A stretch of DNA of 64,000 bases from Allobosea sp. (GTDB lineage Bacteria; Pseudomonadota; Alphaproteobacteria; Rhizobiales; Beijerinckiaceae), in NCBI RefSeq assembly GCF_017308075.1, contig NZ_JAFKFX010000023.1, forward strand, positions 186,001 through 250,000, read 5' to 3'. The position numbers were made by a program, and so were the translations under genes. Below are positions 5,653 to 29,913 of this stretch, one piece after another. Numbering within the stretch: the stretch's first letter is position 1; the number at the start of each line of letters is the position of its first letter. The notes beneath the pieces are model-generated. The model had not been told where the DNA came from. It saw only the letters and a list, made by a program, of their open reading frames with translations, and did not search any database.

Positions 5653-5678
5653 CCGCCTGCGCGGAGCTTCGTGATACC

Positions 5679-6572: not shown

Positions 6573-7197
6573 GCCACACCCTCCGACGCTCGGACTCCTG
6601 CTGGCCGGCGGACTCGCCCGCCGCATGGGCGGCGGCGACAAGCCGCTGCGCACCATCGCCGGTCGCACCATCCTGGCGCATGTGATCGAGCGCTTCGGCT
6701 CGCAATGCGACGGGCTGCTGATCAACGCGAATGGCGACCCGGCGCGCTTCGCCGAATACGGCCTGCCGGTCGCCGGCGACAGCGTGCCGGATTTCGCCGG
6801 CCCGCTCGCCGGAATCCTCGCCGGTCTCGATTGGCTGGCGCAGAACCGTCCGGGCATCGACTGGATGGTCAGCGTCGCCGCCGACACGCCCTTCATCCCA
6901 AAGGACCTGGTCGCGCGGCTGCATGCGGCTCGCAGCGCCACCGGCGTACCGCTGGCCTGCGCCGCCTCGGGCGGCTGGACGCATCCGGTGATCGGGCTCT
7001 GGCCGGTTACGCTGCGCGAAGCGCTGCGCCATGCGCTGACCGTCGAGGACGAGCGCAAGATCGACCGCTGGACCGCCCGCCACGGCGTCGCCAGTGCCGA
7101 ATGGCCGAGCGAGCCGGTCGATCCCTTCTTCAATGCCAATCGCCCGGAGGACTTGGCCGAGGCGGAGCGACTCCATGCCCGGCTCGGCACTGCTTGA
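6565..7197 (+). CDS. mobA: Molybdenum cofactor guanylyltransferase MobA
   Basis: Attaches GMP to molybdopterin to give the guanine dinucleotide cofactor used by formate dehydrogenases. The 210-residue protein has the nucleotide-binding signature [17 protein letters not shown] at its N-terminus, the metal-binding aspartate in [10 protein letters not shown] and the C-terminal [10 protein letters not shown] typical of MobA. Its ATG lies inside the end of fdhD, so DUF2478, fdhD and mobA form one tightly coupled operon. The partner genes mobB and moeA lie 19 kb away beyond the formate dehydrogenase cluster. Confidence 0.95.
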
Positions 7198-14595: not shown

Positions 14596-16635
14596 CTATT
14601 GCAGCGGATCCTCGCCGCGTTCGGCGCGCTCGCGCAGATAATCGTCGGTGGTGCGCACCGGCGGGCGCTGCGGCGCCAGATGCGGGTCGAAGCTCTCATT
14701 GACCACGACCTCGACCCGGCAATCCTCGCACATGCGCAGGATCGAGGCGCGCTTGGCGCCTTCGCCGGCGAACATCCAGTGCCGGTTTTCCAGTTTGGCG
14801 GCGATCTTCTCGATCGTGCTCTTGACCCCGAAAGCCTTGCCGCAGGCGATGCAGTGGAATGGCTCCTCCTGCTTCAGGACCCTGCGGCCGGCCTTCCAGG
14901 CGTCGAAATCGATTTGCGGCGCGAGCGTGATCACCTTTTCCGGGCAGGTCGCGGCGCAGAGCCCGCATTGCACGCAGAGATCTTCCTGGAAGCTCAGCGT
15001 CGGCCGTTCGGGATCGTCGCCGAGCGCGCCGACCGGGCAGGCCGAGACGCAGGCGAGGCAGAGCGTGCAGCCATCGGTGTCGAGATTGACTGTGCCGAAG
15101 GGCGCGCGGGCCGGCATCGCCACGCTGCCGGCCGGCTCGGGAGCCGCGGCGTGCAGTTCCTCGACGATCTGGCGCAGCAGCGGCCGACCGTCGCCCATCG
15201 GCCGGAACCGGGCCGGCTGCGGCGCGACCCGGCCGGGCAGGATGCTGGCGAGGGCTGCGCCGAGCGCCTCGGGGTCGTCGGTTTCGATCAGCGCCGCGCG
15301 CGCCTCGCCGAAGCCGAGTGCGTCGGAGAGCGCATTGGCATAGTCGAGATTGCGCTGGAGGCCCGAAAGGTCGTGCTTCGGCTTCGCCCGCGAGAGCACG
15401 CGCACCGCCGCGGCCCCGAAGGCGAGCGCGGCCGCGAAGCTCTCCATGCCGAGCTGGGTCGTCTCGTTGACGCGCAGCGGCAGGACGCGCGCCGGCAGGC
15501 CGTCGCCATGGCGGGCGAGGGCGTCGATCAAGGGTTCGCCATGCTCGGCGTCGTGCAGCAGCAGAATGGCGTCCTCGCCGCCGGCCTCGGCATAGGTGAC
15601 GAGCAAAGTGCGCAGTTTGCGCAGCAGCGCGTCGGTCGGCGGCAGGGCGTAGGTCACCGCGCCGGTCGGGCAGACCGCGGCGCAGGCGCCGCAGCCGGCG
15701 CAGATCTCCGCGGAAATCGCGACATGGTCGCCGGCGGGGCTGATCGCGCCGGTCGGGCAGAGCTCGAGGCAGCGCGTGCAGCCGGTCCGGCTGGCGCGCG
15801 AATGGGCGCAGAGCCCCTCGTCCAGGGCGACATAGCGTGGCTTGTCGAATTCGCCGACGAGCTGGCTCGCGGCGAAGATCAGGCGCTCGACCGCGGCAGG
15901 ATCGCGCGGGTCGGCACGCAGATAGCCGGCGCGCAGATCTCCGGCGGGAAAGAGCGGGGTGCCGCCGCTGATGTCGATGACGACGTCGCAATGCGAGACC
16001 GCCCCGTTGCGCGGGGCCTCGAAGACCAGCCTGGCCCGCGAGGAGGGGGAGGGGGCGGCATAGTCGTCGACGCTGAGCTCGAAGGCGCCGAGCCAGCCGG
16101 TCGCGCGGCCGATCGTCCCCTTCAGCACCGGGAAATTGTCGAGCCGCGGCGGCGCGATCTCGCCCGGCCGCGTCAGCAGCACGGTGACGTCGAGATGCTC
16201 GGCGAGGCGCTGCGCCAGCGCGATCGCGCCGTCGTCGCGGCCATAGATCAGCGCCACGCCCTTGCTGGTGAGCGTGGTGAAGCTGGCCGGCGGCAGCGGC
16301 TCGCTCGCGGCGGCGAGCAGCGCCGCCATTTTCGGGCCGGCGGATTTCGCCTCCCGCGACCAGCCGGCGGCCTCCCGGATATTGGCGAAGACGAGGTCGC
16401 CGGCGTAATCGAGATCGGCTGCGACCTCCTCGAACAACGGCGCCTCCTGGGTGCAGGCGACGGTGATCGCCTCGCTCTTGGCGAGCATGTCCTGGAAGCG
16501 TTCGATCTGGCTGCGGCAGAGATGACGGTGCTGGCTGATGCCGGCGCCCTTGCAGCCGCGCTGCAGGGCGGCGCCGTCGAGCGGCATCGTATCCTCGCAC
16601 GAGCAGACCATCAGCGTGCGTGCGACTTCGGTCAT
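14596..16635 (-). CDS. Polyferredoxin with HdrA-like N-terminus, formate dehydrogenase cluster
   Basis: A 679-residue cytoplasmic iron-sulfur protein. Residues 1-95 (CSCEDTM, HLCRSQIERF, ACTQEAPLF) recall the N-terminal segment of heterodisulfide reductase HdrA. A first ferredoxin module has Cys276/286/289/293 and 312/315/318/322. A middle segment (about 340-420) resembles an MvhD-type fold in layout only. A second ferredoxin module has Cys523/526/529/533 and 554/557/560/564. A C-terminal unit has CIAC at 595-598 and CEDC at 636-639. Up to four [4Fe-4S] clusters plus one further metal site are expected. It is transcribed divergently from the accessory and formate dehydrogenase genes, which suggests an electron-transfer role with them; partners are unknown. 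Confidence 0.85.
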   Translation of the reverse strand: MTEVARTLMVCSCEDTMPLDGAALQRGCKGAGISQHRHLCRSQIERFQDMLAKSEAITVACTQEAPLFEEVAADLDYAGDLVFANIREAAGWSREAKSAGPKMAALLAAASEPLPPASFTTLTSKGVALIYGRDDGAIALAQRLAEHLDVTVLLTRPGEIAPPRLDNFPVLKGTIGRATGWLGAFELSVDDYAAPSPSSRARLVFEAPRNGAVSHCDVVIDISGGTPLFPAGDLRAGYLRADPRDPAAVERLIFAASQLVGEFDKPRYVALDEGLCAHSRASRTGCTRCLELCPTGAISPAGDHVAISAEICAGCGACAAVCPTGAVTYALPPTDALLRKLRTLLVTYAEAGGEDAILLLHDAEHGEPLIDALARHGDGLPARVLPLRVNETTQLGMESFAAALAFGAAAVRVLSRAKPKHDLSGLQRNLDYANALSDALGFGEARAALIETDDPEALGAALASILPGRVAPQPARFRPMGDGRPLLRQIVEELHAAAPEPAGSVAMPARAPFGTVNLDTDGCTLCLACVSACPVGALGDDPERPTLSFQEDLCVQCGLCAATCPEKVITLAPQIDFDAWKAGRRVLKQEEPFHCIACGKAFGVKSTIEKIAAKLENRHWMFAGEGAKRASILRMCEDCRVEVVVNESFDPHLAPQRPPVRTTDDYLRERAERGEDPLQ

Positions 16636-16682
16636 CGGGGCCGTATTCCTCGAAAGCTGGCGAGCGCGTCTTTCGTCGCCCT

Positions 16683-16712
16683 TGCGATAATTCATGCTTA
16701 TATGGAATTGGA
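16683..16712. promoter_or_regulatory. AT-rich divergent promoter region with imperfect dyad
   Basis: A short AT-rich island in GC-rich surroundings between the polyferredoxin gene and the ligase-like gene. It contains ATTCAT-N6-ATGGAAT, an inverted repeat with one inserted base, and is the natural site for divergent promoters and an operator. No regulator can be assigned. Confidence 0.4.
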
Positions 16713-16764
16713 ACGACTCCAAAGAAGCAAGCCCGCTTCGAGCGGTCTCGGGGATGCGGGAGAG

Positions 16765-17508
16765 ATGGCGGCAGGGGTGGCTAGACCGGACGATCTCAGG
16801 CGCGAACCGGTGCTGCCGCCGGGGTTTTCGCTGGTGACGCTGCGCGAATCCGGCGACGCCTTCGGCCATGCCCAGGCGATCGCCGATGAGGCCGGCGCCG
16901 CGACCTTGGTCTGGGTGCGACGTTTCGACATCGTCGAATTCGCGGTCGTGCTGGAGCCCGACGCGATTCTCGCCGAGGCCCGGCTCGCCCACTACCTTGC
17001 GATGAATGCGCTCGCTGACGCGCTCGCCATCCATTCTCCGCCGGAGCGGCCCGTGCTGTTCCGCTGGCCCGACGCCCTGACCTATGATCTCGGCCTGATC
17101 GGCGGCGGCCGGCTGGCCTGGCCGGCCGATTGCCCGGAGAAGCAGGTGCCGGACTGGCTCGTCTTCGGCGCCATGGTCCGCGCCACCACAATGTCGCCTT
17201 TCCAGCCCGGCCAGACCGGCGTCGGCATGGCGGAGGAGGGCTTCGAGGAGGTCGATGCGGTCGACCTGATCGAGGCCTTCGCCCGCCATCTCATGCTCGG
17301 AGTTAGCCGCTGGCAGGCGGAGGGCGCCAAGCCGACGGTCAGGCGCTGGCTCGACCGGCTGGAGAAGGTGACGGGTGTGCGCCACGGCATCGAGCCCAAC
17401 GGCGATCTGGTCGCGACCTCGCAGCATGGGACAGAGCGCAACGGCCTCGTCGAGGCGCTCGCCAGGGTCGACTGGCTGGATCGCGAGAGTGGCGGGCCGA
17501 AGCTGTGA
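16765..17508 (+). CDS. Biotin/lipoate protein ligase-like protein (degenerate)
   Basis: A 247-residue protein related to biotin/lipoate protein ligases. The fold marker FRWPDALTYDLGLIGGGRLA lines up with the ligase segment usually read as KWPND followed by a catalytic lysine and AGI. Here the lysine is missing, and the glycine/arginine-rich adenylate loop is replaced by WVRRFDIVEFAVVLEP. It probably binds a ligand or protein and does not transfer biotin or lipoate. The ATG at 16765 has a GGGAGAG site; an upstream ATG at 16702 is possible but lies in the promoter island. First gene of the accessory series leading to formate dehydrogenase. Confidence 0.75.
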   Translation: MAAGVARPDDLRREPVLPPGFSLVTLRESGDAFGHAQAIADEAGAATLVWVRRFDIVEFAVVLEPDAILAEARLAHYLAMNALADALAIHSPPERPVLFRWPDALTYDLGLIGGGRLAWPADCPEKQVPDWLVFGAMVRATTMSPFQPGQTGVGMAEEGFEEVDAVDLIEAFARHLMLGVSRWQAEGAKPTVRRWLDRLEKVTGVRHGIEPNGDLVATSQHGTERNGLVEALARVDWLDRESGGPKL

Positions 17509-17560
17509 TGGGCAATGGCCGCGAGGCCTCGTGTTCGCTCCTCAGGATGAGGGGTTCGTC

Positions 17561-18115
17561 GTGAGCGCGCCTCTCAAGCTGCCGCGGGCGATCAGGCTCG
17601 ATCCTTCCGACGGCTTCGTCTTCCGCCGGGCCGCCGAGCCCGGCGAATGGCTCGTCAGCGGTTCCTTCCTGTTCGATCCGCAGCGCGTCGCCGCGCTCGA
17701 CGCCAAGGGGCGCTCCGCCTTCCGCTCCGGCTTTCTCGGCATCGACAGTTTTGGCTGGAGCACGCTCGCGGTGGTCACGGAAGCGACGCCGGCGGAATAT
17801 GAGCAGGCCTTGGTGCTGCTCGCCGGGCGCTTCGTCGAGAAGCTCGGCGCTCCCGGTCTTTCTGCTGCGCGGGACGCGGCCGCCGAGGAGCTCGCCTTCG
17901 CCGCCTCGCTCTGCGATCATCCCCCGCAGACCCTCCTCGCCTTGCACCGGACGCTGGAGGAGGGCGAGATCCGCGAGCGCTTCCGCATACTGGTGCCGCG
18001 TGGCGACCGGCCGAAGGACGCTTTCCGTGCCTTCGAGTTCGTCGAGGTGGAGGGCGAGGACGAGATCGTGGAGCGGGTCGATCTGATGAATCTCGGCAAG
18101 GGCGGCACGCCATGA
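17561..18115 (+). CDS. DUF6505-like protein of the formate dehydrogenase cluster
   Basis: A 184-residue protein starting at a GTG after GGATGAGGGG; another in-frame GTG at 17531 is an alternative. It begins VSAPLKLPRAIRLDPSDGFVF, has a central LAAD-type helical part (ATPAEYEQALVLLAGRF) and ends LMNLGKGGTP. The order ligase-like, this, DUF6352-like, DUF3305, DUF3306 is one I associate with alphaproteobacterial formate dehydrogenase loci, from which I take the DUF6505 label. There are no cysteines that look cluster-binding and no signal peptide. Function unknown. It overlaps the next gene by four bases (ATGA). Confidence 0.7.
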   Translation: MSAPLKLPRAIRLDPSDGFVFRRAAEPGEWLVSGSFLFDPQRVAALDAKGRSAFRSGFLGIDSFGWSTLAVVTEATPAEYEQALVLLAGRFVEKLGAPGLSAARDAAAEELAFAASLCDHPPQTLLALHRTLEEGEIRERFRILVPRGDRPKDAFRAFEFVEVEGEDEIVERVDLMNLGKGGTP

Positions 18116-19122
18116 CGCATTTCTGGGCGAGCTCCGGCCATCTCCTGCTCGATCGCGAGCCGGGCGGCGGCCTCCTCGTCACCGACGACTTCCTGAAGGC
18201 CTATCTGGCGCGTCCGGAAGTGCTGCCGCCGGACGAGGCTTGCGATGCCGAGCGGATGCTGCACACCAGGCTGATGGCGACGCCGCAGGCCGAGGTCGCG
18301 GCGAGCGAGATCGCGGCGCTGGCCGATGCCGATGCCCGTGAGAACTGGCGCTTCCTGCTCGGCTGGCGCGACCGGCTGCTTGCGGCGCCGACGCTGGAGG
18401 CCGCCTATGCCGGCATCATCCGGAAGGGCGTTTCCGGCGTGCCGCCGCTCTTCCTCGACCAGCTCGTGCACGTCATCCTGCGCGCTGCGCTCGACGAGGA
18501 GGACGATCCCTTCGTCGTCCGCGCCGCCGAATGCCTGTTCCGGCCGCAGCGCGTCACCGTCCACGAGAACACCATCCTCCTGGCCGATGCCGAGATGATC
18601 GAGGGCCATGAGGCCGACCGACACGCCTCGCCTCTGCTCGCCATGCTGGGCGGACCGGCCGCGACCGCGCTCGACCTCCTCAAGAGCACTAATTCGGCGC
18701 AGTATTGGCAGCGTTCGGATGCCTTCGACATGGTGCTCGATCTCGGCGGCAAGCCCTCCGGACGCGCCGCGCTCGGCCAGGCCTTGCGCCACTGGATCCG
18801 CCAGATCCACGGCTTCGACGTCGCGATCGAGGCGGTGGAGAGCGTCAAGGATGCCGATTGGCGCTGGTTCATCGGTCTCGACGCGCAGGCGACGGCGGTC
18901 GGCAACGCGCTCTGGCGCGGCGAGAGCCTGGAGCCGGAGGCGGCCTCGCGGCTGATCGCGCTCTATAGGCTCGACCTGCCGGCCGAGGTGCCGGTCGTGC
19001 CGGCGGCGAAGGGGCGGCCGGTCTATCTGCTGGCGGCGATGGGGCAGGACAAGGTCCTGCGCCTCAAGCCGCAGAACCTCGTCGTCGGCCTGCCCCTGGC
19101 CGAGCGCGAGATGGCGAATTGA
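18112..19122 (+). CDS. DUF6352-like protein of the formate dehydrogenase cluster
   Basis: A 336-residue soluble protein starting MTHFWASSGHLLLDREPGGG. It looks mainly helical and acidic, with a conserved-looking N-terminal segment LVTDDFLKAYLARPE, a central AAECLFRPQRVTVHENTILLAD and DWRWFIGLDAQATAVGNALW near the end. I recognise it as the DUF6352 type found only beside this class of formate dehydrogenase; no enzymatic motif is visible. It is translationally coupled to the gene before it and separated by ten bases from the DUF3305 gene after it. A role in assembling or sensing formate dehydrogenase is inferred from position. Confidence 0.72.
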   Translation: MTHFWASSGHLLLDREPGGGLLVTDDFLKAYLARPEVLPPDEACDAERMLHTRLMATPQAEVAASEIAALADADARENWRFLLGWRDRLLAAPTLEAAYAGIIRKGVSGVPPLFLDQLVHVILRAALDEEDDPFVVRAAECLFRPQRVTVHENTILLADAEMIEGHEADRHASPLLAMLGGPAATALDLLKSTNSAQYWQRSDAFDMVLDLGGKPSGRAALGQALRHWIRQIHGFDVAIEAVESVKDADWRWFIGLDAQATAVGNALWRGESLEPEAASRLIALYRLDLPAEVPVVPAAKGRPVYLLAAMGQDKVLRLKPQNLVVGLPLAEREMAN

Positions 19123-19132
19123 GGAGGCTGCG

Positions 19133-19642
19133 ATGACCCAGCTCTATCATGAGGTCGGCATCGTCGTGGAGCGCCGCGCCATCGACTCGCCCTGGGCCGA
19201 CCATGCCTGGGCGCCGATCGCGGTGCTTCCCGAACCGCCCGATCTCGCACCCTGGGCGAAGCTCACCGGCACGCCGGAGCGCCAGCAATTCTACCTCGGC
19301 CCGGCGACCTTGACGCTGCATTCGGTCGACACCGCGCATTTCCGCGAGAACTTCGAGAGCGGGCAAGCCAAGCTCTGGGTCGCGGTCCGGCCGACCGGGT
19401 TCGAGCCGGCGCTCGAAATGGTCGGCGTCACCGCCGACCCGTTCGAGGGTGAGGTCTTCTGCGAGAATGTCGACGATGTCGTCGAGGCGGTGCCGATGCC
19501 CGCCGCGGTCGCCCGGTTGGTGCTGGCCTTCTTCGAGGAGCACCATGTCGAGCGCGAATTCGTCAAGCGCAAGCGCTCTGAGCATGACCCGCGCAAGGGC
19601 GGTCCGCGGCCGCGTCCCGGCCTCGAACGCGGAGAGGGCTGA
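19133..19642 (+). CDS. DUF3305 family protein
   Basis: A 169-residue protein with the family opening VGIVVERRAIDSPWADHAWAP, then FYLGPATLTLHSVDTAHF, AKLWVAVRPTG and a basic C-terminal tail (SEHDPRKGGPRPRPG). DUF3305 proteins occur in formate dehydrogenase operons together with DUF3306; their activity is not established. The ATG follows a GAGGAGGC-type site. Its stop overlaps the start of the DUF3306 gene (TGATG), so the two are made together and may form a pair. Confidence 0.85.
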   Translation: MTQLYHEVGIVVERRAIDSPWADHAWAPIAVLPEPPDLAPWAKLTGTPERQQFYLGPATLTLHSVDTAHFRENFESGQAKLWVAVRPTGFEPALEMVGVTADPFEGEVFCENVDDVVEAVPMPAAVARLVLAFFEEHHVEREFVKRKRSEHDPRKGGPRPRPGLERGEG

Positions 19643-20343
19643 TGTCCGCCCGCGGCGAGGACGACGGGGATGACGGCTTCCTCGGTCGCTGGTCGCGCCG
19701 CAAGCGCGCCGCCGCTGAGCCGGTGGCGAAGGCCGCGTCGGAGCCCGCCTTGCCGCCCGCGCCTGAGCCCGAACCGGTCGAGCCGCCCTCGCTCGACCTG
19801 ATCGACAAGGATTTCGATCTCGCCCACTGGCTGAAGCAGAACGTCCCCGAGAGCTGGAAGCGCGCCGCGCTGCGCCGGGCCTGGGAGAGCGATCCGGCGA
19901 TCTCGGGCTATCTCGATCCGGCCCGCGACTACGCGCTCGACTGGAACACGCCGGGCGGCGCCCCAGGCTATGGCCCGCTCTCGGCTTCCGACAATGTCGA
20001 GGAGATGATCGCCAACATTTTCGGCAAGCAGCCCGAGCCACCCTCCGAATCGGCCGCAACGGGTCCGGCCATGCTGCGTGATGATGCCGCAGATCATCGA
20101 CTTTCGTCTAAGGAAGATGAGGCTGGTGCTTTGGGTGCGCCGCAACCGGACGAAGCAGAGCCGCCGCAGGAGCTGCTGCCAGTTCGCCGTAGCGATGCGC
20201 CGGAAAGCGCGGGAACCGTCGAAAAACCCGGTGAATTGCAGCCATTGCCGACTGCAGGTGTTGCTGCAGTGCGGGATCAATCCTGGTCGCAGCCCCCTGC
20301 GGCCCGACCGCGCAGGCGCGGCGGGGGCGCGACGCCGCTCTGA
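19642..20343 (+). CDS. DUF3306 family protein
   Basis: A 233-residue protein. The basic N-terminus FLGRWSRRKRAA is followed by a proline-rich linker and the family core LDLIDKDFDLAHWLKQNVPE, ALRRAWESDPAISGYLDPARDYALDWN and NVEEMIANIF (about 50-130). The last 100 residues are low-complexity and proline/alanine-rich, ending in a basic patch. No signal peptide, membrane helix or cofactor motif. The family co-occurs with DUF3305 at formate dehydrogenase loci. The long disordered tail suggests a scaffold or adaptor role, which is inference. Confidence 0.85.
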   Translation: MSARGEDDGDDGFLGRWSRRKRAAAEPVAKAASEPALPPAPEPEPVEPPSLDLIDKDFDLAHWLKQNVPESWKRAALRRAWESDPAISGYLDPARDYALDWNTPGGAPGYGPLSASDNVEEMIANIFGKQPEPPSESAATGPAMLRDDAADHRLSSKEDEAGALGAPQPDEAEPPQELLPVRRSDAPESAGTVEKPGELQPLPTAGVAAVRDQSWSQPPAARPRRRGGGATPL

Positions 20344-20345
20344 CT

Positions 20346-20395
20346 TTCAGTTGAGAACAATTGAAATCTGCGGTGATAAGGGAGCATTATCACCG
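20346..20395. promoter_or_regulatory. Tandem dyads upstream of the HTH-TorD gene (candidate operators)
   Basis: Two inverted repeats five bases apart fill the 100-base gap. The first, 20346-20365, is TTCAGTTG-AGAA-CAATTGAA (7 of 8 pairs). The second, 20371-20395, is CGGTGATAA-N7-TTATCACCG (perfect 9-bp arms). No T-tract follows the second, so it looks more like an operator than a terminator. The gene downstream encodes a protein with a DNA-binding domain. Confidence 0.6.
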
Positions 20396-20443
20396 GCGCT
20401 CGAGCGCGCCTGAAGCGCGTCGGCAGGGGAGGTGGCATCGTCC

Positions 20444-21235
20444 ATGCGGGACCAGGCTCTTGAACGGGCAATCGGAGCGGCTGGCGGCGTCAGGGCCCTG
20501 GCGCGTGCGCTCGGGGTTTCGCAGCCGGCGATCTCGAGCTGGAAGCGCGTGCCGGCCGACCGGGTGCTCTCGGTCGAGGCGAGTACCGGTGTCCCGCGCA
20601 GCGAGCTTCGGCCCGATCTTTACCCGCAGGAGCCGATCATCGTCCGGCAGGCCGTTCCGGAGCTCGACGAACTCGACGCCGCCCGTGCCGAGGAATGCGA
20701 GCTGATCGGCGCCCTGCTCTGGCGCGCGCCGACGGCCGAGACGCTGGCGGCGCTGCAGGGCCTGCGCGGCGACGCCTCGCCGCTCGGCATGGCTCATTTC
20801 GCGCTGGCCGAGGCTGCGGCCGAGACGACCCCGGAGGCGGTCCGCGACGAATTCTTCGAGCTCTTCATCGGCGTCGGCCGCGGCGAGCTCCTGCCCTATG
20901 CCTCTTATTATATGACCGGCTTCCTGCACGAGCGCCCGCTGGCGCTGGTGCGCGAGGATATGGGCCGGCTCGGCCTTGCACGCGACGAGCGCGCCGGTGA
21001 GCCGGAGGACCATATCGCCGTTCTGATGGACATCCAGGCGCAATTGATCCGCGGCGAGGCCACCGGCGAAGGCATCGACGAGCGCTCTTTCTTCGAGCGT
21101 CACATCCAGCCCTGGGGCGAGCGCTTTTTCGCCGATCTCGAGGTTGCCAGGACGGCGCGCTTCTACCGCGCCGTCGGCCGGGTCGGCAGCCTCTACCTTT
21201 CGATCGAGACGCAGGCCGCGAGCCTGCCCGCATGA
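20444..21235 (+). CDS. HTH-TorD fusion: DNA-binding domain plus molybdoenzyme chaperone
   Basis: A 263-residue protein in two parts. Residues 1-60 are a Cro/YdaS-like helix-turn-helix (IGAAGGVRALARALGVSQPA then ISSWKRVPADRVLSVE). Residues 80-255 are a TorD/DmsD-type chaperone domain with FFELFIGVGRGELLPYASYY and the hallmark PEDHIAVLMDIQ. TorD proteins bind Tat leaders and help insert molybdenum cofactor. This one could also read client occupancy out to DNA. The ATG at 20444 has GGGGAGG about 11 bases upstream; a GTG at 20432 is too close to that site. The Tat-tagged small protein and catalytic subunit follow at once. Confidence 0.88.
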   Translation: MRDQALERAIGAAGGVRALARALGVSQPAISSWKRVPADRVLSVEASTGVPRSELRPDLYPQEPIIVRQAVPELDELDAARAEECELIGALLWRAPTAETLAALQGLRGDASPLGMAHFALAEAAAETTPEAVRDEFFELFIGVGRGELLPYASYYMTGFLHERPLALVREDMGRLGLARDERAGEPEDHIAVLMDIQAQLIRGEATGEGIDERSFFERHIQPWGERFFADLEVARTARFYRAVGRVGSLYLSIETQAASLPA

Positions 21236-21261
21236 TGATGCCCGGCGCGGAGGAGACGACG

Positions 21262-21456
21262 ATGTCGCAGAAGAGCAAGGAAACGGGGCTCGACCGCCGC
21301 AACTTCTTCAAGGCGCTCGGTGCGGGCGCCACCGCGGCCGTCGCGCCCGTCGCCGTGTCGCCGGCCGCAGCGGTCGACCCCGGCAAGGAAGAGACGAAGT
21401 CCCGCTATCGCGAGACCGACCACATCAAGAATTACTACCGCACCAACCGGTATTGA
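21262..21456 (+). CDS. Formate dehydrogenase-associated Tat-signal small protein
   Basis: A 64-residue protein with a twin-arginine motif (DRRNFFKAL), a short hydrophobic stretch with an alanine-rich end (AVAPVAVSPAAA), and a charged tail ending HIKNYYRTNRY. It matches the formate dehydrogenase-region Tat target family (TIGR02811-like). The ATG at 21262 follows GGAGGAGACGACG; the longer frame from 21232 is less likely. It lies just before the catalytic subunit gene and may be a small exported partner of the enzyme. Confidence 0.85.
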   Translation: MSQKSKETGLDRRNFFKALGAGATAAVAPVAVSPAAAVDPGKEETKSRYRETDHIKNYYRTNRY

Positions 21457-21469
21457 GGAGGCTGGCGTC

Positions 21470-24448
21470 ATGCTGATCAAGCGAAAATCCGCCGACGTCC
21501 AGCGCGGCCGTCTCCAGTCCGCCCTCGGCGGCCTTGCCGCCGGCGTGATGGATCGCCGCTCCTTCCTGCGCCGCTCCGGCCTGGTGGCGGGCGGCGTCGC
21601 GGCTGCCGGCGCCCTGCAGATCGGCGCCGTCCGCAAGGCCGAGGCCGCGAGCCCCGGCCCGGCGACCGGCACCAAGATCGTCAAGAACATCTGCACCCAT
21701 TGCTCGGTCGGCTGCACCGTCAAGGCCGAGGTCGCCAATGGCGTCTGGGTCGGCCAGGAACCGGCCTGGGAGAGCCCGATCAACCGCGGCACGCACTGCG
21801 CCAAGGGCGCCTCGGTGCGCGAGCTCGTCCATGGCGACCGCCGCATCAAGTACCCGATGAAGCTGGTCGATGGGAAATGGCAGCGCCTGTCCTGGGACCA
21901 GGCGGTCGGCGAGATCGGCGACAAGATGATGGAGATCCGGGCCAAGTCCGGCGCCGATTCCGTCTACCTGCTCGGCTCGGCCAAGTTCTCGAATGAAGGC
22001 TCCTATCTGTTCCGCAAGTTCGCGGCCTTCTGGGGCACCAACAACGTCGATCACCAGGCGCGCATCTGCCACTCGACTACGGTCGCGGGCGTTGCGAACA
22101 CCTGGGGCTACGGCGCCATGACCAACTCCTACAACGACATCCGCAATTCGAAGACCGTGCTCTTCATGGGCTCGAATGCCGCCGAGGCGCATCCTGTCTC
22201 GATGCAGCACATCCTGGCGGGCAAGGAGACCCAGCGCGCCAACGTCATCGTCTTCGATCCGCGCTTTACCCGCACCGCGGCGCATGCGACCGACTATGTC
22301 CGCTTCCGCTCCGGCACCGACATCGCGGTGATCTGGGGGCTGATGTGGCACATCTTCCAGAATGGCTGGGAGGACAAGGCCTTCATCGCCAGCCGCGTGC
22401 ACGGCATGGACGACGTCCGCAAGGAGGTCGAGAAATACGATCCGAAGACCGTCGAGGACATCACCGGCGTCCCCGGCGAGCAGATGAAGCGGGCGGCCCA
22501 GACCTTCGCCACGGTCAAGCCCGCCACCTTCGTCTGGTGCATGGGCGTGACCCAGCACTCGGTCGGCACGGCCAACGTCCGCGCCATCTGCAACCTCCTG
22601 CTCGCGACCGGCAATGTCGGCGCCCGCGGCACCGGCGCCAACATCTTCCGCGGCCATTGCAATGTGCAGGGCGCCACCGATTTCGGCCTCGATGTCTCGA
22701 ACCTGCCTTGCTATTACGGGCTGGTCGAAGGCGCCTGGCGCCATTGGGCCCGGGTCTGGAACGTCGATTACGACTATTTCGTCTCGCGCTTCGACGAGGT
22801 TCCGGCCAAGGGCGGCCGGCCGGCGCGCACCCGCAAGCAGAACATGGAGCTTTCGGGCCTCACCTCGACCCGCTGGTTCGACGCCACCAACCTGCCGGCC
22901 GAGCAGGTCGACCAGCAGGACAATCTCAAGGCCATGTTCGTCATGGGCCATGGCGGCAACTCCATCCCGCGCATGACCGATCTGGCCAAGGGGCTGGAAA
23001 AGCTCGACCTGCTGGTGGTCTGCGATCCGCACCCGACGAATTTCGTCTCGCTGGGTGGCCGCAAGAACGGCACCTATGTGCTGCCGATCTGCACGCAGTT
23101 CGAGACTTCGGGCTCGCGCACCTGTTCGAACCGCTCGCTGCAATGGGGCGAGAAGATCGTCGAGCCGATCTTCGAATCCGCCAGCGACTACGCGGTCATC
23201 TACAAGCTTTCGCAGAAGCTCGGCTTCGCCGAGGCGATGTTCAAGCCCTATGAGATGGTGCAGGGCAAGATCGGTCCCGAGCCGACCGCCGAGTCGATCC
23301 TCAAGGAAATCAACCGCGGGGGCTGGTCGACCGGCTATACCGGCCAGTCGCCGGAGCGGCTCAAGCTGCACATGGCCAATCAGGACAAGTTCGACCTGGT
23401 GACGCTGCGTGGCGCCAAGGGCTCCCCGGTCGAGAATGATTTCTACGGCCTGCCCTGGCCGTGCTGGGGGACGCCGGAATTCAAGCATCCGGGTTCGCAC
23501 ATCCTCTACAACACCTCGCTCGAGGCCAGGGATGGCGGCGGCACCTTCCGCCCGCGCTTCGGCCTGACGCGCGAGCGCACTTTGCCGGATGGCAGCAAGG
23601 TCAACGACACCCTGCTGGCCGAGGGCGGCTCGTTCTCGCTCAACTCCGAGATCAAGGACGGCTATCCCGAGTTCACCATGGGCGTGCTGAAGAAGCTCGG
23701 CTGGGACAAGGACCTGACACCGGCCGAGCTGGAAGTCATCACCGGCATCGGCGGGAATAATATCGATGCGGTGAGCTGGTCGATCGACCTGTCGGGCGGC
23801 ATCCAGCGCGTCGCGCTCGAGCATGGCTGCGTGCCCTATGGCAACGGCAAGGCCAGGGCCAATGCCTGGAACCTGCCCGATCCCGTGCCGACCCATCGCG
23901 AGCCGATCTATTCGCCGCGCGTCGACCTCGTCGCGAAGTGGCCGGCCCGGCCCGACGAACGCACCTTGCGCATCCCGAACCTGCACACCTCGATGCAGAA
24001 GGCGGCGGTCGAGAAGGGCATCGCCAAGGCCTTCCCAATCGTCCTCACCTCCGGCCGCCTCGTCGAATACGAGGGCGGCGGCGAGGAGACGCGCTCGAAC
24101 AAATGGCTGGCCGAGCTGCAGCAGGACATGTTCGTCGAGATCAACCCGGCGGATGCCAGCGAGCGCGGCATTCGTGACGGGGCCTTCGTCTGGGTCTCCG
24201 GTCCGGAGAACGGCGCGAAGGCCAGGGTCAAGGCCCTGGTCACCGACCGGGTCGGCAAGGGTGCGGCCTTCATGCCCTTCCATTTCGGCGGCTTCTTCCA
24301 GGGCGTCGACCAGCGCGGCAACTACCCGCCCGGGACCGACCCGATCGTGCTCGGCGAGTCCGTCAACACGGTCACCACCTATGGCTACGACCCGGTGACG
24401 GGCATGCACGAAGGCAAGGCCACGCTTTGCCAGATCGCTGCGGCGTGA
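21470..24448 (+). CDS. Formate dehydrogenase catalytic (alpha) subunit, Tat-exported
   Basis: A 992-residue molybdenum or tungsten bis-MGD enzyme oxidising formate to CO2 at the periplasmic side. A Tat leader DRRSFLRRSG at 28-37 is followed by a hydrophobic segment. Cys75, 78, 82 and 110 bind the N-terminal [4Fe-4S] cluster. The metal ligand is Cys200 followed by His201 (QARICHSTTVAG). The codon is TGC, so this is not a selenocysteine enzyme. GTGANIFRGHCNVQGATDFG and a C-terminal molybdopterin-binding domain are present. The ATG at 21470 has GAGGAGG upstream. Alpha, beta and gamma follow in order with small gaps. Tungsten or molybdenum use cannot be told from sequence. Confidence 0.95.
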   Translation: MLIKRKSADVQRGRLQSALGGLAAGVMDRRSFLRRSGLVAGGVAAAGALQIGAVRKAEAASPGPATGTKIVKNICTHCSVGCTVKAEVANGVWVGQEPAWESPINRGTHCAKGASVRELVHGDRRIKYPMKLVDGKWQRLSWDQAVGEIGDKMMEIRAKSGADSVYLLGSAKFSNEGSYLFRKFAAFWGTNNVDHQARICHSTTVAGVANTWGYGAMTNSYNDIRNSKTVLFMGSNAAEAHPVSMQHILAGKETQRANVIVFDPRFTRTAAHATDYVRFRSGTDIAVIWGLMWHIFQNGWEDKAFIASRVHGMDDVRKEVEKYDPKTVEDITGVPGEQMKRAAQTFATVKPATFVWCMGVTQHSVGTANVRAICNLLLATGNVGARGTGANIFRGHCNVQGATDFGLDVSNLPCYYGLVEGAWRHWARVWNVDYDYFVSRFDEVPAKGGRPARTRKQNMELSGLTSTRWFDATNLPAEQVDQQDNLKAMFVMGHGGNSIPRMTDLAKGLEKLDLLVVCDPHPTNFVSLGGRKNGTYVLPICTQFETSGSRTCSNRSLQWGEKIVEPIFESASDYAVIYKLSQKLGFAEAMFKPYEMVQGKIGPEPTAESILKEINRGGWSTGYTGQSPERLKLHMANQDKFDLVTLRGAKGSPVENDFYGLPWPCWGTPEFKHPGSHILYNTSLEARDGGGTFRPRFGLTRERTLPDGSKVNDTLLAEGGSFSLNSEIKDGYPEFTMGVLKKLGWDKDLTPAELEVITGIGGNNIDAVSWSIDLSGGIQRVALEHGCVPYGNGKARANAWNLPDPVPTHREPIYSPRVDLVAKWPARPDERTLRIPNLHTSMQKAAVEKGIAKAFPIVLTSGRLVEYEGGGEETRSNKWLAELQQDMFVEINPADASERGIRDGAFVWVSGPENGAKARVKALVTDRVGKGAAFMPFHFGGFFQGVDQRGNYPPGTDPIVLGESVNTVTTYGYDPVTGMHEGKATLCQIAAA

Positions 24449-24462
24449 GGAGGCACTGAACC

Positions 24463-25059
24463 ATGGCCCGGATGAAATTCCTCTGCGACGCCGACCGCTG
24501 CATCGAATGCAACGCCTGCGTCACCGCCTGCAAGAACGAGAACGACGTGCCCTGGGGCATCAACCGCCGACGCGTCGTCACCATCAACGACGGCAAGCCC
24601 GGCGAGCGCTCGGTCTCGATGGCCTGCATGCACTGCACCGACGCGCCCTGCGCGGCGGTCTGCCCGGTCGACTGCTTCTACACCACGGCGGATGCCGTGG
24701 TGCTGCACAACAAGGACCTCTGCATCGGCTGCGGCTATTGCTTCTACGCCTGCCCGTTCGGCGCGCCGCAATATCCGAAGCTCAGCAATTTCGGTTCGCG
24801 CGGCAAGATGGACAAGTGCACCTATTGCGCCGGTGGTCCGGAGGTCGATCTCTCGCCCGCCGAGTTCCAGAAATACGGCTCGAACCGCCTCGCCGAGGGC
24901 AAGCTGCCGCTCTGTGCCGAGATGTGCTCGACCAAGGCGCTGCTCGCCGGCGATGGCGAGATCATTGCGCAGATCTACAAGGAACGCGTGGTCAAGCGCG
25001 GCTACGGTTCCGGCGCCTGGGGATGGCAGACCGCCTATCGGGAAACCATCGCCATCTGA
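24463..25059 (+). CDS. Formate dehydrogenase iron-sulfur (beta) subunit
   Basis: A 198-residue ferredoxin-type subunit carrying electrons from the catalytic subunit to the cytochrome b. Four [4Fe-4S] sites can be placed: Cys13/16/19/23, Cys55/58/63/67, Cys87/90/93/97, and Cys119/122/151/155. It has no signal peptide and no C-terminal membrane helix, so it probably travels through the Tat system with the alpha subunit. It is shorter than FdnH-type subunits (about 290 residues) and matches the FDH3-type beta subunit. The ATG follows GTGAGGAGG. Confidence 0.94.
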   Translation: MARMKFLCDADRCIECNACVTACKNENDVPWGINRRRVVTINDGKPGERSVSMACMHCTDAPCAAVCPVDCFYTTADAVVLHNKDLCIGCGYCFYACPFGAPQYPKLSNFGSRGKMDKCTYCAGGPEVDLSPAEFQKYGSNRLAEGKLPLCAEMCSTKALLAGDGEIIAQIYKERVVKRGYGSGAWGWQTAYRETIAI

Positions 25060-25146
25060 CTTCTGGGGGGAGGGGCGCGTCACGGCCGGAAAGGTCGGAT
25101 GCGTTCCTCCCGCAGTCCCGCCATGCCTTCGCGAAAGGACGCCGCA

Positions 25147-26154
25147 ATGCCGCTCGGTGCTCATCTCCGCTTCCTGTTCAGCGGGCTCCTGCTTGCGCTG
25201 GCGCTCGCCGTCGCGGCTCCCGCCGGCGCCCAGCAGGTCAACCCGACCGCCAATTCCGTTCGGGAGCAGCAATTCCTCGAGGTGCTGAAGGGCAACCCTT
25301 CCGCCGAGCTGCGCGGCAGGGTCTCCATCCCCGACACCAGGGCCGCCACGCTGGAGCGCCCGGCCGGGCGCGACTGGCGCAGCTTCCACCAGGGCACCAT
25401 GACCCGCATCGGCGCCGTCGCCGTGCTCGGCATGCTGGTCATACTGGTGGCCTTCTACCTGTTCCGCGGCAGGATCAGGATCGCCGCCGGTCCTTCCGGA
25501 CAGACGATCACGCGCTTCAACGCCTTCGAGCGCTTCATGCACTGGCTCACCGCTGGCTGCTTCATCATCCTGGCGCTGTCGGGCCTGAACGTCACCTTCG
25601 GCAAGGCCTTGCTGCTGCCGCTGATCGGGCCACAGGCCTTCACCAATCTCTCGGTGGCGGCCAAATGGTCGCATAACTTCCTGGCCTGGCCGTTCATGCT
25701 CGGCGTGGCGCTGATGTTCCTGGTCTGGATCAAGGACAACATCCCGAATCTCGGCGATCTGCGCTGGCTTGCTGCGGGCGGCGGCCTGATCGGCAAGGGC
25801 CATGCGCCGCCGGCCCGGCGCTTCAATGGCGGCCAGAAGGTGATCTTCTGGGCGGTGGTGCTCGGCGGTGCCGCGCTCTCGGTCTCCGGCGTCTACCTGC
25901 TGTATCCGAGCTTCTCCGGCGGCGTGCTCGACATGCAGTTCTGGAACATGGTCCACGGCATCGTCGCCGTGCTGATGATCGCCGTCATGCTGGCGCACAT
26001 TTATATCGGCTCGATCGGCATGGAAGGCGCTTTCGACGCGATGGGCTCGGGCGAGGTCGACCTCAACTGGGCCAAGGAGCACCACGCGCTCTGGGTCGCC
26101 GAGGAGGTCGAGAAGGGCCGGGCGCCCGGGGCGAGGCTGCAGCCGGCGGAGTGA
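25147..26154 (+). CDS. Formate dehydrogenase cytochrome b (gamma) subunit
   Basis: A 335-residue membrane subunit passing electrons to quinone. A signal peptide (residues 1-29, ending PAGAQ) precedes a periplasmic stretch, then about five hydrophobic segments. Histidines in RFMHWL, KWSHNF, NMVHGI and MLAHIYIG are the candidate axial ligands for two b hemes, as in FdnI-type subunits. The ATG at 25147 is preferred over in-frame starts at 25099 and 25123 because GAAAGGAC precedes it and it begins the leader. Last gene of the operon before a terminator. Confidence 0.93.
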   Translation: MPLGAHLRFLFSGLLLALALAVAAPAGAQQVNPTANSVREQQFLEVLKGNPSAELRGRVSIPDTRAATLERPAGRDWRSFHQGTMTRIGAVAVLGMLVILVAFYLFRGRIRIAAGPSGQTITRFNAFERFMHWLTAGCFIILALSGLNVTFGKALLLPLIGPQAFTNLSVAAKWSHNFLAWPFMLGVALMFLVWIKDNIPNLGDLRWLAAGGGLIGKGHAPPARRFNGGQKVIFWAVVLGGAALSVSGVYLLYPSFSGGVLDMQFWNMVHGIVAVLMIAVMLAHIYIGSIGMEGAFDAMGSGEVDLNWAKEHHALWVAEEVEKGRAPGARLQPAE

Positions 26155-26198
26155 CAATCGGCGCGCTTGACCCGCACATGCGATCCGCAGGATGACAG

Positions 26199-26228
26199 CC
26201 GGGCGCTTTTTGCGCCCGGTTCTGTTTT
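26199..26228 (+). terminator. Rho-independent terminator after the formate dehydrogenase operon
   Basis: An 8-bp GC stem CCGGGCGC / GCGCCCGG with loop TTTTT, followed by TTCTGTTTT. It lies between the gamma-subunit stop and mobB, so mobB-moeA may depend on read-through or their own promoter. Confidence 0.8.
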
Positions 26229-26244
26229 GGAGATGTCATCCTCA

Positions 26245-26775
26245 ATGCGCGTGATCGGGCTGGCGGGTTGGAGCGGAGCCGGCAAGACGACCCTTCTCAC
26301 CCGGCTGATTCCGGAGTTTTCAGGCCGCGGTATCGCCGTTTCGACGATCAAGCACGCCCATCATGCCTTTGATCTCGACACGCCCGGCAAGGATTCCTGG
26401 GCACATCGCCAGGCGGGCGCCTCCGAGGTGCTGATTTCCTCGGCCAAGCGCTGGGCGCTGCTGCACGAAGCGCGCGACGAGCCGGAGGCGACGCTGCCGG
26501 AGCTGCTCGCCCGACTCTCACCGGTCGACCTTGTCATCGTCGAAGGCTTCAAGCGCGATCCGCACGCCAAGCTCGAAGTGTTCCGCGCCGCGAACGGCAA
26601 GCCGCCGCTGCACCCGCAGGATGCAAGCATTGTGGGCGTGGCGAGCGATACGCCCTTCCCGCAGGCTGGCCGCCCCGTGCTCGGGCTCGATGATGTCCCC
26701 GGGATCGCCGATCTTCTGTTCGCCCGCGCCCAGCCATTGGCGCAGGTTCTGGCGCTGGCGCGCGAGGAGGCCTGA
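26245..26775 (+). CDS. mobB: Molybdopterin-guanine dinucleotide biosynthesis adaptor MobB
   Basis: A 176-residue GTP-binding protein that assists MobA in making the MGD cofactor. P-loop GWSGAGKTTLL at residues 8-18, then TIKHAHHAFDLDTPGKDS, the segment typical of MobB, and DLVIVEGFKRDPHAKLEV. The ATG at 26245 is chosen because a GGAG lies 12 bases upstream; that GGAG directly touches the earlier ATG at 26233. moeA begins one base after its stop. Confidence 0.93.
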   Translation: MRVIGLAGWSGAGKTTLLTRLIPEFSGRGIAVSTIKHAHHAFDLDTPGKDSWAHRQAGASEVLISSAKRWALLHEARDEPEATLPELLARLSPVDLVIVEGFKRDPHAKLEVFRAANGKPPLHPQDASIVGVASDTPFPQAGRPVLGLDDVPGIADLLFARAQPLAQVLALAREEA

Positions 26776-26776
26776 A

Positions 26777-28033
26777 ATGGCGCAGCTCAGTGAAGATGCC
26801 AAGGTCTTCGGCGGTCCGTTGATGACGATCGAGCAGGCGGCCGCACTGGCGGCGGAGCGCATCGGCGCCGTCGCCGAGATCGAGACCGTGCCGCTCGCAC
26901 TGGCCGATGGCCGTGTCCTGGCGGTCGACATCGCCGCGCCGCGCGACCTGCCGCCCTTCGCCAATTCGGCTGTCGATGGCTATGCCGTGCGCTTTTCCGA
27001 TCTCGCCTCGTCCGGCGAGACCCGGCTGCCGCTCTCCGGCCGGGTCGCGGCGGGGTCGGATGCGGCCGGGATCGCGGTCGCCGGCTTTGCGATCCGCGTC
27101 TTCACCGGCGCGCCGATGCCTGCCGGCGCCGACACCGTGTTCATGCAGGAGGACGTCGCGCTGGAGGAGGGCTTCGTGCGCCTCCCGGCCGGGCTGAAGC
27201 CGGGCGCCAATGCCAGACCGGCCGGCGAGGACGTGGCCATGGGTGCTCCGGTGCTGGCGGCCGGGCGTCGCCTGCGTCCGCAGGATCTCGGCCTGCTCGC
27301 CGCTCTCGGCCTCACCGAGGTCGCGGTGCGGCGCCGCGTCAGGATCGCGGTGTTCTCCACGGGTGATGAATTGAACGAGCCCGGCACGCCTTTGCCGCCG
27401 GCCGGGATCTACGACGCCAATCGCAGCGTGCTGCGGGCTCTGGTCGCCCGCGCCGGTGCGGAGGTGGTGGATCTCGGTATCCTCCGTGACGAGCCGGCGA
27501 GCCTGGGCGAGCGTCTGCGCGCCGCGGCGCGCGATTGCGATCTGATCCTGACCTCGGGTGGCGTCTCGACCGGCGAGGAGGACCACGTCAAGACGGCGGT
27601 TACGCAAGTCGGCGAGCTCGCCTTCTGGCGCATCGGCATCAAGCCGGGACGCCCGGTCGCGATGGGGCTGATCGACGGAAAGCCCTTTCTCGGCCTGCCG
27701 GGCAACCCCGTCGCGGTCTTCGTCACCTTCGCTTTCGTCGCACGCGCGGTGATCGCCCTGCTCGCGGGCACGACGCCGGCCCGCCCGCAGGCGCTGCCGG
27801 TCAGGCTCGGTTTTCCCTATCGCAAGAAGGCCGGCCGGCGCGAATATGTCCGGGTCTCCCTGGCGCCGGGTGCCGATGGTATCGCCGTCGCCCGCAAGCA
27901 TCCGCGCGACGGCGCCGGCATCCTGACCTCGCTGACCGAGACCGACGGGCTGGTCGAACTGGCCGAGGAGCTGACGGGCGTGGCGGAGGGCACGATCGCC
28001 CCCTTCTTCGCCTATGATCTGCTGACCGGCTGA
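26777..28033 (+). CDS. moeA: Molybdopterin molybdenumtransferase MoeA
   Basis: A 418-residue enzyme inserting molybdate into adenylylated molybdopterin. Motifs in order: FANSAVDGYAVRF, IRVFTGAPMPAGADTV, VFSTGDELNEPG, LTSGGVSTGEEDHVK and FLGLPGNPVAVFV. Normal length. The start at 26777 lies one base after the mobB stop; the much longer open frame upstream runs through mobB and is spurious. With mobB, mobA and fdhD it completes local cofactor synthesis for the formate dehydrogenase. Confidence 0.95.
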   Translation: MAQLSEDAKVFGGPLMTIEQAAALAAERIGAVAEIETVPLALADGRVLAVDIAAPRDLPPFANSAVDGYAVRFSDLASSGETRLPLSGRVAAGSDAAGIAVAGFAIRVFTGAPMPAGADTVFMQEDVALEEGFVRLPAGLKPGANARPAGEDVAMGAPVLAAGRRLRPQDLGLLAALGLTEVAVRRRVRIAVFSTGDELNEPGTPLPPAGIYDANRSVLRALVARAGAEVVDLGILRDEPASLGERLRAAARDCDLILTSGGVSTGEEDHVKTAVTQVGELAFWRIGIKPGRPVAMGLIDGKPFLGLPGNPVAVFVTFAFVARAVIALLAGTTPARPQALPVRLGFPYRKKAGRREYVRVSLAPGADGIAVARKHPRDGAGILTSLTETDGLVELAEELTGVAEGTIAPFFAYDLLTG

Positions 28034-29848: not shown

Positions 29849-29913
29849 CCTGCTAAACCCCGTCAGCCGCGCGACGCTTCCCACGCGAAGGCGTCGAAAC
29901 GGTGACGCTAGAA

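Follow-up and report, generated by a model that had tools for sequence, protein, structure and literature searches.

FdhE and FdhD have been described as cytoplasmic accessory proteins for exported formate dehydrogenases (FDHs; reviewed in PMC10609526). In Campylobacter jejuni the TorD homologue FdhM (Cj1514) is needed for FDH and not for trimethylamine N-oxide reductase (PMC4148689; PMC10609526), and the fdh3DABC genes of M. extorquens encode a periplasmic FDH (PMC12180729). In a survey of dmsD-fdhGHI operons, 60% had DUF3305 and DUF3306 genes ahead of them (Bay et al., 2015; PMC4464133). The locus considered here lies in a 64-kb stretch of an Allobosea sp. contig (NZ_JAFKFX010000023.1; 64,000 nucleotides, below called the window). 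Its fdhABG genes are preceded by genes for a biotin-ligase-like protein, for DUF6505, DUF6352, DUF3305 and DUF3306 proteins, for a helix-turn-helix (HTH) domain fused to a TorD-type chaperone and for a small twin-arginine (Tat) peptide. A polyferredoxin gene diverges from the head of the cluster.

How does this locus compare with the described systems? Like the FdhE/FdhD system of the Escherichia coli enzymes FdnGHI and FdoGHI it offers accessory proteins for an exported FDH, and FdhD is common to both. However, the FdhA of the window is of the cysteine type, its genome has no FdhE match and five module profiles are unrelated to FdhE. As for FdhM, a TorD-family chaperone gene lies upstream of fdhA (PMC4148689), but here the chaperone is fused to a repressor-type HTH and a palindrome lies upstream. 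Two Methylorubrum loci (L071, L072) hold the full module, as the window does, but their TorD proteins lack the HTH. The P22 Cro and YdaS-type phage repressors share with the window an HTH domain match and a palindromic candidate site, whereas the HTH of the window is joined to a chaperone for a molybdoenzyme, within an operon of metabolic genes.

Bay et al. (2015) name DUF3305 and DUF3306 putative membrane proteins, and the accessible text of that paper contains neither 'HTH' nor 'ligase' and neither DUF6352 nor DUF6505 (PMC4464133). A full-text literature search, with most subscription literature outside its scope, returned DUF3305 or DUF3306 together with FDH only from this paper, and DUF6352 or DUF6505 from no paper. 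Searching titles and the beginnings of abstracts gave no report on a fusion of TorD to an HTH or other DNA-binding or repressor domain. The accessible text of the review PMC10609526 contains neither 'DNA-binding' nor 'regulator'.

The reading proposed here, with a probability of roughly 0.6, is that these genes would form a dedicated maturation module that stands in FdhE's place for a cysteine-type, Tat-exported FdhABG, and that the chaperone would autoregulate the structural operon. If true, this would give the DUF3305, DUF3306, DUF6352 and DUF6505 families a role that can be tested, correct the misleading annotation 'protein ligase' and explain how many bacteria build a respiratory FDH without FdhE. 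It would also present a straightforward principle of control, in which a chaperone signals to its operon how busy it is. There is demand for FDHs in CO2 reduction, and maturation of the alpha subunit is reportedly, by the title of one paper (PMC13396061), the bottleneck in producing one FDH in E. coli. Missing helpers therefore matter in practice.

Distribution of the accessory families

The first survey covered 199 Pseudomonadota genomes, one per species. DUF3305 occurs in 31 of these and DUF3306 in the identical 31, all of which have the FDH gamma subunit FdhG, and none of the 32 DUF3305 places is further than 20 kb from an FDH gamma gene. The DUF6505 genomes (19/19) and the DUF6352 genomes (13/13) fall inside the same 31. 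In 4 of the 13 DUF6352 genomes and in 1 of the 19 DUF6505 genomes, a distance of over 170 kb separates the gene from the FDH locus, which is nevertheless present. Therefore, linkage alone would not explain the co-occurrence. No recurring neighbour of the unlinked genes was seen by eye, and none of the four DUF families was found in 14 well-known control genomes. The ligase-like family is common overall (113 of the 199 genomes), and its high-scoring FDH-type members, below called pseudo-ligases, are found in 18 genomes only, all of them linked.

DUF3306, TorD and the Tat peptide accompany DUF3305 at all 31 loci fetched from the first survey. In the co-occurrence counts over the 199 genomes, hypergeometric values take no account of kinship, and the Tat-peptide rows were selected and are not an independent count: they go down to E 1e-6, omit G139 and G062 (long frames) and all weaker rows, and include one weak row added beside a second locus in genome G174. 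The polyferredoxin gene is present in 29 of the 31 (not L012, L028).

The loci of named genomes are the best 80 of 584 confirmed relatives, which biases them to close kin. Among these 80, 49 have both flanks and 47 of the 49 keep the full gene order of the window. FdhA, FdhB, the polyferredoxin, the Tat peptide, TorD, DUF3305, DUF3306, DUF6352 and the pseudo-ligase are present in every one of the 49, and at the thresholds used DUF6505 and FdhG are each found in 48. The exceptions to the order are L079, which is rearranged and in which FdhG was not found, and L092, in which DUF6505 was not found.

A second sample took 199 genomes of the window's own order, one per species, and its second set of loci comprises 65 DUF3305 loci, taken from further genomes of that order. 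These show other gene orders. The polyferredoxin gene is found at all 48 full-length loci; the 17 shorter ones were left out of the FDH count. FDH genes lie near 45 of the 48: nine of the 48 at first showed no FdhA, FdhB or FdhG, and six of these nine showed them on extension.

The preliminary description, made from the letters of the window alone, had suggested a possible maturation, electron-transfer or quality-control module around a periplasmic FDH, and a survey of co-occurrence. That there is a module around an exported FDH is strongly supported by these distributions, including those of DUF6352 and DUF6505 where they are unlinked. Wide occurrence of the accessory genes without FDH, which by that description would refute the idea, was not seen; FDH genes are missing only at 3 of the 48 second-set loci (G300, G245 and G282), for which the absence refers to the DNA fetched, the rest of these genomes not having been searched. 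Judged from gene content, the core is DUF3305 and DUF3306, TorD, the Tat peptide and, with two exceptions, the polyferredoxin, and the pseudo-ligase with DUF6505, and DUF6352, are optional outer layers of the module.

Some individual genomes deserve mention. L165, L172 and L195 are trios of DUF3305, DUF3306 and polyferredoxin with no FDH genes in the fetched DNA; they may have another role, or their FDH may lie far away. In G016 (L012-L015), DUF6352 lies about 285 kb and DUF6505 about 384 kb from the FDH locus, the FDH stretch is without polyferredoxin, no FDH-type pseudo-ligase was found and DUF6505 stands without one; the ligase-like match in this genome is an ordinary BirA. G174 has two FDH loci with DUF3305/3306 (L027, L028); in the stretch fetched for the second, outer layers, polyferredoxin and HTH are all missing. 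Plasmid pB of Sinorhizobium meliloti LMB1 (L150), which is typed as conjugative, bears a complete cassette together with mobA and fdhD. The cassette may therefore be mobile as one unit.

The module and FdhE

One clue to the role of the module is where FdhE is found. There is no match to FdhE (PF04216) in the window's own genome, with E. coli as a positive control. The first survey contains 54 genomes with FDH gamma: 31 have DUF3305/3306 without FdhE, 23 have FdhE without DUF3305, and none has both or neither. Two more FdhE genomes have no FDH gamma above the cut-off. Five taxonomic families contain both kinds, one of them within a single genus (G155 versus G028 and G143). The second sample has 75 DUF3305 genomes (10 already in the first survey) and 13 FdhE genomes (four already in the first), and one genome has both, where about five would be expected from the frequencies. 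At 20 FDH loci from FdhE genomes, no DUF3305, DUF3306, TorD, Tat peptide or polyferredoxin gene was detected at the thresholds used. By these counts, the module and FdhE act as alternatives across genomes, though the exclusion is not absolute. The exclusion favours a maturation or export role, and by analogy of position the module takes FdhE's place in another FDH subtype. The core would hold FdhA, perhaps with FdhB, in the cytoplasm until cofactor insertion and then release it to Tat. It would thereby serve the cysteine-type FDH as FdhE serves the selenocysteine enzymes of the FdnGHI/FdoGHI type.

Several observations weigh against this reading. Perhaps the exclusion reflects selenium use and FDH subtype only, selenocysteine FDHs going with FdhE and cysteine FDHs with the module, without functional equivalence of the two cassettes. 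This is a serious possibility, if a minority one. FdhA of the FdhE class has an in-frame TGA before His-Gly-Pro at 18 of 19 loci checked (rows drawn from 20 of the 23 genomes; stretch L132 ends before FdhA, and in L145 the FDH is distant from the fdhE of the same genome). FdhA of the module class has Cys at all 138 readable sites among 142 loci. FdhE-class FdhA scores 143-226 with the window FdhA, whereas in the first survey FdhA of the module class scores 994-1,737. With scores so divergent, the exclusion may only mark two FDH subtypes, and the module need not do FdhE's chemistry. No module profile resembles FdhE, and the plasmid-borne cassette of S. meliloti LMB1 also suits this alternative. 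What is more, Sinorhizobium and Azospirillum plasmids occur in both the DUF3305 and the FdhE plasmid lists, and more genomes with both systems would therefore be expected. The genome that does have both, G371, carries the two loci 2.3 Mb apart; the FdhE locus gives only weak FdhD and FdhA profile matches and the other is a whole module. An observation that does not fit the selenium explanation is that the C. jejuni FDH is a selenoprotein and has FdhM; the TorD part is therefore not restricted to Cys enzymes.

What if the module proteins are not maturation factors at all? They might be structural or electron-transfer partners, with the polyferredoxin as a conduit for electrons and DUF3305/3306 as docking proteins in the cytoplasm. 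The polyferredoxin, in which the Fer4 matches of Pfam fall in three stretches, is nearly as constant as DUF3305 (29/31 and 48/48) and would suit such a role. However, the small peptide (TIGR02811) and FdhA (by eye) have twin-arginine N-termini, which means that the enzyme should be exported, whereas the remaining module proteins start without an export signal as judged by eye, no signal predictor having been run. The TorD gene and the neighbouring FdhD, MobA, MobB and MoeA genes are maturation genes. A structural or electron-transfer role is rather unlikely.

The HTH-TorD fusion and its upstream palindrome

The features of the locus and its flanks are the following (window coordinates).

5580..6572, plus strand: FdhD (PF02634; start uncertain)
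6565..7197, plus strand: MobA (PF12804, MobA-like)
14596..16635, minus strand: divergent polyferredoxin, 679 aa (Fer4 families, Pfam)
16702..17508, plus strand: biotin-ligase-fold protein, probable pseudo-ligase (PF16917 BPL_LplA_LipB_2, 170.6 bits, 3.5e-50; start set by eye)
17489..18115, plus strand: DUF6505 protein (PF20115, 184.5 bits, 1.3e-54; start uncertain, GTG at 17489 taken, with no in-frame ATG near the position where orthologues start)
18112..19122, plus strand: DUF6352 protein (PF19879, 204.6 bits, 3.1e-60)
19133..19642, plus strand: DUF3305 protein (PF11749, 114.5 bits, 5.9e-33)
19642..20343, plus strand: DUF3306 protein (PF11748, 45.6 bits, 1.5e-11)
20361..20390, plus strand: promoter-like site TTGAAA-N18-CATTAT (consensus match only; second hexamer within the palindrome)
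20371..20395, no strand: putative operator CGGTGATAA-N7-TTATCACCG (general motif ATAR-N7-YTAT)
20432..21235, plus strand: HTH-TorD (FdhM-like) fusion (YdaS/Cro-like HTH at residues 10-67; TorD/NarJ-type domain at 115-233)
21232..21456, plus strand: FDH-region Tat peptide, 74 aa (TIGR02811 formate_TAT, 59.2 bits, over cut-off)
21470..24448, plus strand: FdhA, cysteine-type (ARICHS; TIGR01591, 3.2e-140, below the model cut-off; Cys site)
24463..25059, plus strand: FdhB (Fer4 families; the gene at the same place in NZ_CP141214.1 is annotated FDH3 subunit beta)
25099..26154, plus strand: FdhG (TIGR01583 FDH gamma, 153 bits, over cut-off)
26167..26775, plus strand: MobB (PF03205; start uncertain)
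26774..28033, plus strand: MoeA (PF03453, PF00994, PF03454; start uncertain)

The Pfam and NCBIfam matches agree with the gene order first given for this locus, from the divergent polyferredoxin to FdhABG. The earlier remark that several genes overlap by one to four bases holds, by open reading frame coordinates, at three junctions: DUF6505/DUF6352 by 4 bases, DUF3305/DUF3306 by 1 and TorD/Tat peptide by 4. DUF6352 and DUF3305 are separated by 10 bases. The run is interrupted by an 88-base gap between DUF3306 and HTH-TorD (20344-20431). This gap holds the palindrome and the promoter-like match, and the plus-strand genes therefore probably form two transcription units, in addition to the divergent polyferredoxin gene.

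The N-terminal HTH of the TorD protein matches Pfam's YdaS and P22 Cro families and, in PHROGs, phrog_35 'transcriptional repressor' (3e-15). The TorD/NarJ domain PF02613 (Nitrate_red_del) is present at 2.9e-27. The palindrome, an addition to the preliminary description, has a core that is found once in the window at up to three mismatches (expected 0.02) and at one site in the whole genome at up to two. Across the loci it accompanies the fusion. The general motif was read from the first-set loci before being counted there, within 160 bases upstream, and in that set it is present at 63 of 65 HTH-positive loci (64 of 66 with the window) and at 1 of 41 loci whose TorD lacks the HTH. TorD is shown by 25 of the 65 second-set loci. 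With the motif and the HTH hidden Markov model frozen, the counts there are 11 of 11 HTH-positive and 0 of 14 HTH-negative (shuffle means 0.03 and 0.09), the HTH-positive TorDs being 57-80% identical to the nearest one of the first set. Thirteen further TorDs from extension stretches have neither HTH nor motif. Pooled, the palindrome is found at 75 of 77 HTH-positive loci versus 1 of 68 HTH-negative loci, and at 28 of 29 versus 1 of 47 after thinning to below 75% TorD identity.

In the same HTH-positive loci the motif is never found upstream of DUF6352, DUF3305, DUF3306, FdhB, FdhG or DUF6505 (51-60 loci each), and it is found upstream of the pseudo-ligase in 3 of 52. It occurs inconsistently in the divergent region between polyferredoxin and ligase (4 of 68 loci). 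Going by the domain matches and motif counts, some lineages have a TorD with an N-terminal repressor-type HTH and a palindrome just upstream. At the level of sequence, the fusion has what an autoregulated transcription factor would have, a DNA-binding domain and, immediately ahead of the gene that encodes it, a conserved candidate site.

Could the palindrome instead be the site of some other regulator, or a conserved DNA or RNA structure, with its match to HTH-TorD merely a lineage effect? In favour of this, of 60 named HTH-positive loci, 46 are Hyphomicrobiales by title and most others Bosea or unranked, with one metagenome-assembled genome titled Burkholderiales. A second inverted repeat also exists in Bosea loci. 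However, the HTH changes seven times on a 137-locus FdhA tree, which gives seven branch-disjoint pairs on supported branches. The palindrome moves with the HTH in 6.5 of these 7 pairs on average and in the opposite direction in none (sign test median p 0.0156, range to 0.0625); on a 99-row FdhA tree the median p is 0.031. A contrast within a small clade is similar, since L063 (Mesorhizobium) has HTH and motif and L059, L062 and L064 have neither, but L060 has the HTH with a degenerate site only. There is no terminator-like site and no Rfam match, and the palindrome was rejected as a terminator or known RNA. Its half-sites have a spacing of 11 bp, which would suit an HTH dimer. A site unrelated to the fusion is rather improbable.

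This does not remove every difficulty with autoregulation. The motif was defined on the first set and then counted on it. The 11 HTH-positive loci of the second set come from only four genera, seven of them from one genus. A tree of the TorD domain has weaker support and offers only two usable pairs. The HTH is absent from 68 examined TorD loci. In several loci from Bradyrhizobium a TTGAC box follows the palindrome, a placement that would also suit an activator.

Nevertheless, an autoregulatory circuit can be proposed. The TorD domain would act like FdhM and bind the Tat signal of FdhA, and perhaps that of the small Tat peptide. Free HTH-TorD dimers would occupy the palindrome and so keep the torD-tat-fdhABG operon repressed. 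A chaperone occupied by unexported precursor would change its DNA binding, and enzyme supply would thereby be matched to maturation capacity. In part of the Hyphomicrobiales, the chaperone would have acquired a repressor domain of phage type together with an operator, and transcription of the structural operon would depend on its state. Repression is somewhat preferred to activation because the -10-like hexamer lies inside the palindrome in the window. The two ideas can also be joined: HTH-TorD as a cargo-sensing chaperone-repressor through which the load of unmatured FdhA is read as expression, and the DUF3305/3306 module as an FdhE-independent FDH route that goes with Cys. This joint proposal is tentative and somewhat short of even odds.

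The second inverted repeat, of the type TTYCARTY-N6-8-RATTGRAA, lies at 20345-20366 of the window, just upstream of the palindrome, and also in the Bosea-clade loci L050, L052, L055, L057 and L061.

The probable pseudo-ligase, the DUF families and the neighbouring genes

The first gene of the plus-strand run had been described as ligase-like. In profile searches of the PDB the protein matches 3bfm (E 7e-89), deposited as biotin protein ligase-like and of unknown function, and BirA (E 4e-9), the match to BirA-type ligases and 3bfm covering the catalytic and C-terminal parts. It differs from BirA in that the biotinyl-AMP loop is missing and the catalytic Lys is replaced. We take GRGRRGR to be the biotinyl-AMP-binding motif and have assigned the catalytic Lys column likewise. 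The loop is gapped in the window protein and in all 145 other FDH-type sequences (which include near-identical ones, and one gene twice through the overlapping stretches L211 and L224), whereas the true BirA of G016 (L015) keeps it. The catalytic column has Leu in the window; among the 145 others it is another residue than Lys in 140, Lys in four and a gap in one. Should the protein be an active biotin or lipoate ligase that modifies an FDH-linked protein, the name of PF16917 and the four Lys-bearing sequences would be accounted for. The gapped loop and the replaced Lys make this very unlikely. It is probably a pseudo-ligase and would then be a scaffold or binding partner without enzyme activity. 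The four Lys-bearing pseudo-ligases (L198, L199, L186, L200) belong to one genus by their genome codes, and the nucleotide loop is missing from them.

Known folds were sought for the DUF proteins. AlphaFold2 models of DUF3305 and DUF6352 are confident (predicted local distance difference test scores of 92.5 and 86.4), and Foldseek gave neither a PDB match at E <= 0.001; both were rejected as known folds. Profile searches of the PDB gave no match for DUF6352 or DUF3305 and best E values of 0.16 for DUF6505 and 0.33 for DUF3306. A common origin of the five module profiles, or kinship with FdhE, was likewise rejected (hhalign probabilities all below 5%). The C-terminal part of the NCBIfam model NF011058, named 'MobA, DUF3305 domain-containing', matches the window DUF3305 at 4.9e-16, below the model cut-off. 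DUF3305 fused to a molybdenum-cofactor guanylyltransferase, as this name implies, would support a cofactor-related role; no instance was found in this analysis.

The source genome is 5.55 Mb in 62 contigs and its nearest named relatives are Bosea species; the window DUF6352 protein is 96% identical to that of Bosea sp. WAO. The best NCBIfam match of FdhA, TIGR01591, scores 468 bits against an equivalog cut-off of 666, which is not reached. The gene context and Cys site of FdhA agree with loci annotated FDH3, and TIGR01583 and TIGR02811, both over cut-off in the window, are in keeping with the FDH3 type. MobB and MoeA adjoin FdhG downstream, and FdhD and MobA lie upstream of the cluster, 7.4 kb away. 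After MoeA, the minus strand at 28155-29884 carries Alph_Pro_TM (PF09608) and TauE/SafE exporter genes. A WD40 propeller with a C-terminal cytochrome c domain is encoded at 10207-11481, near an Mrp/NUBPL gene and a TusA-like open reading frame recognized by eye.

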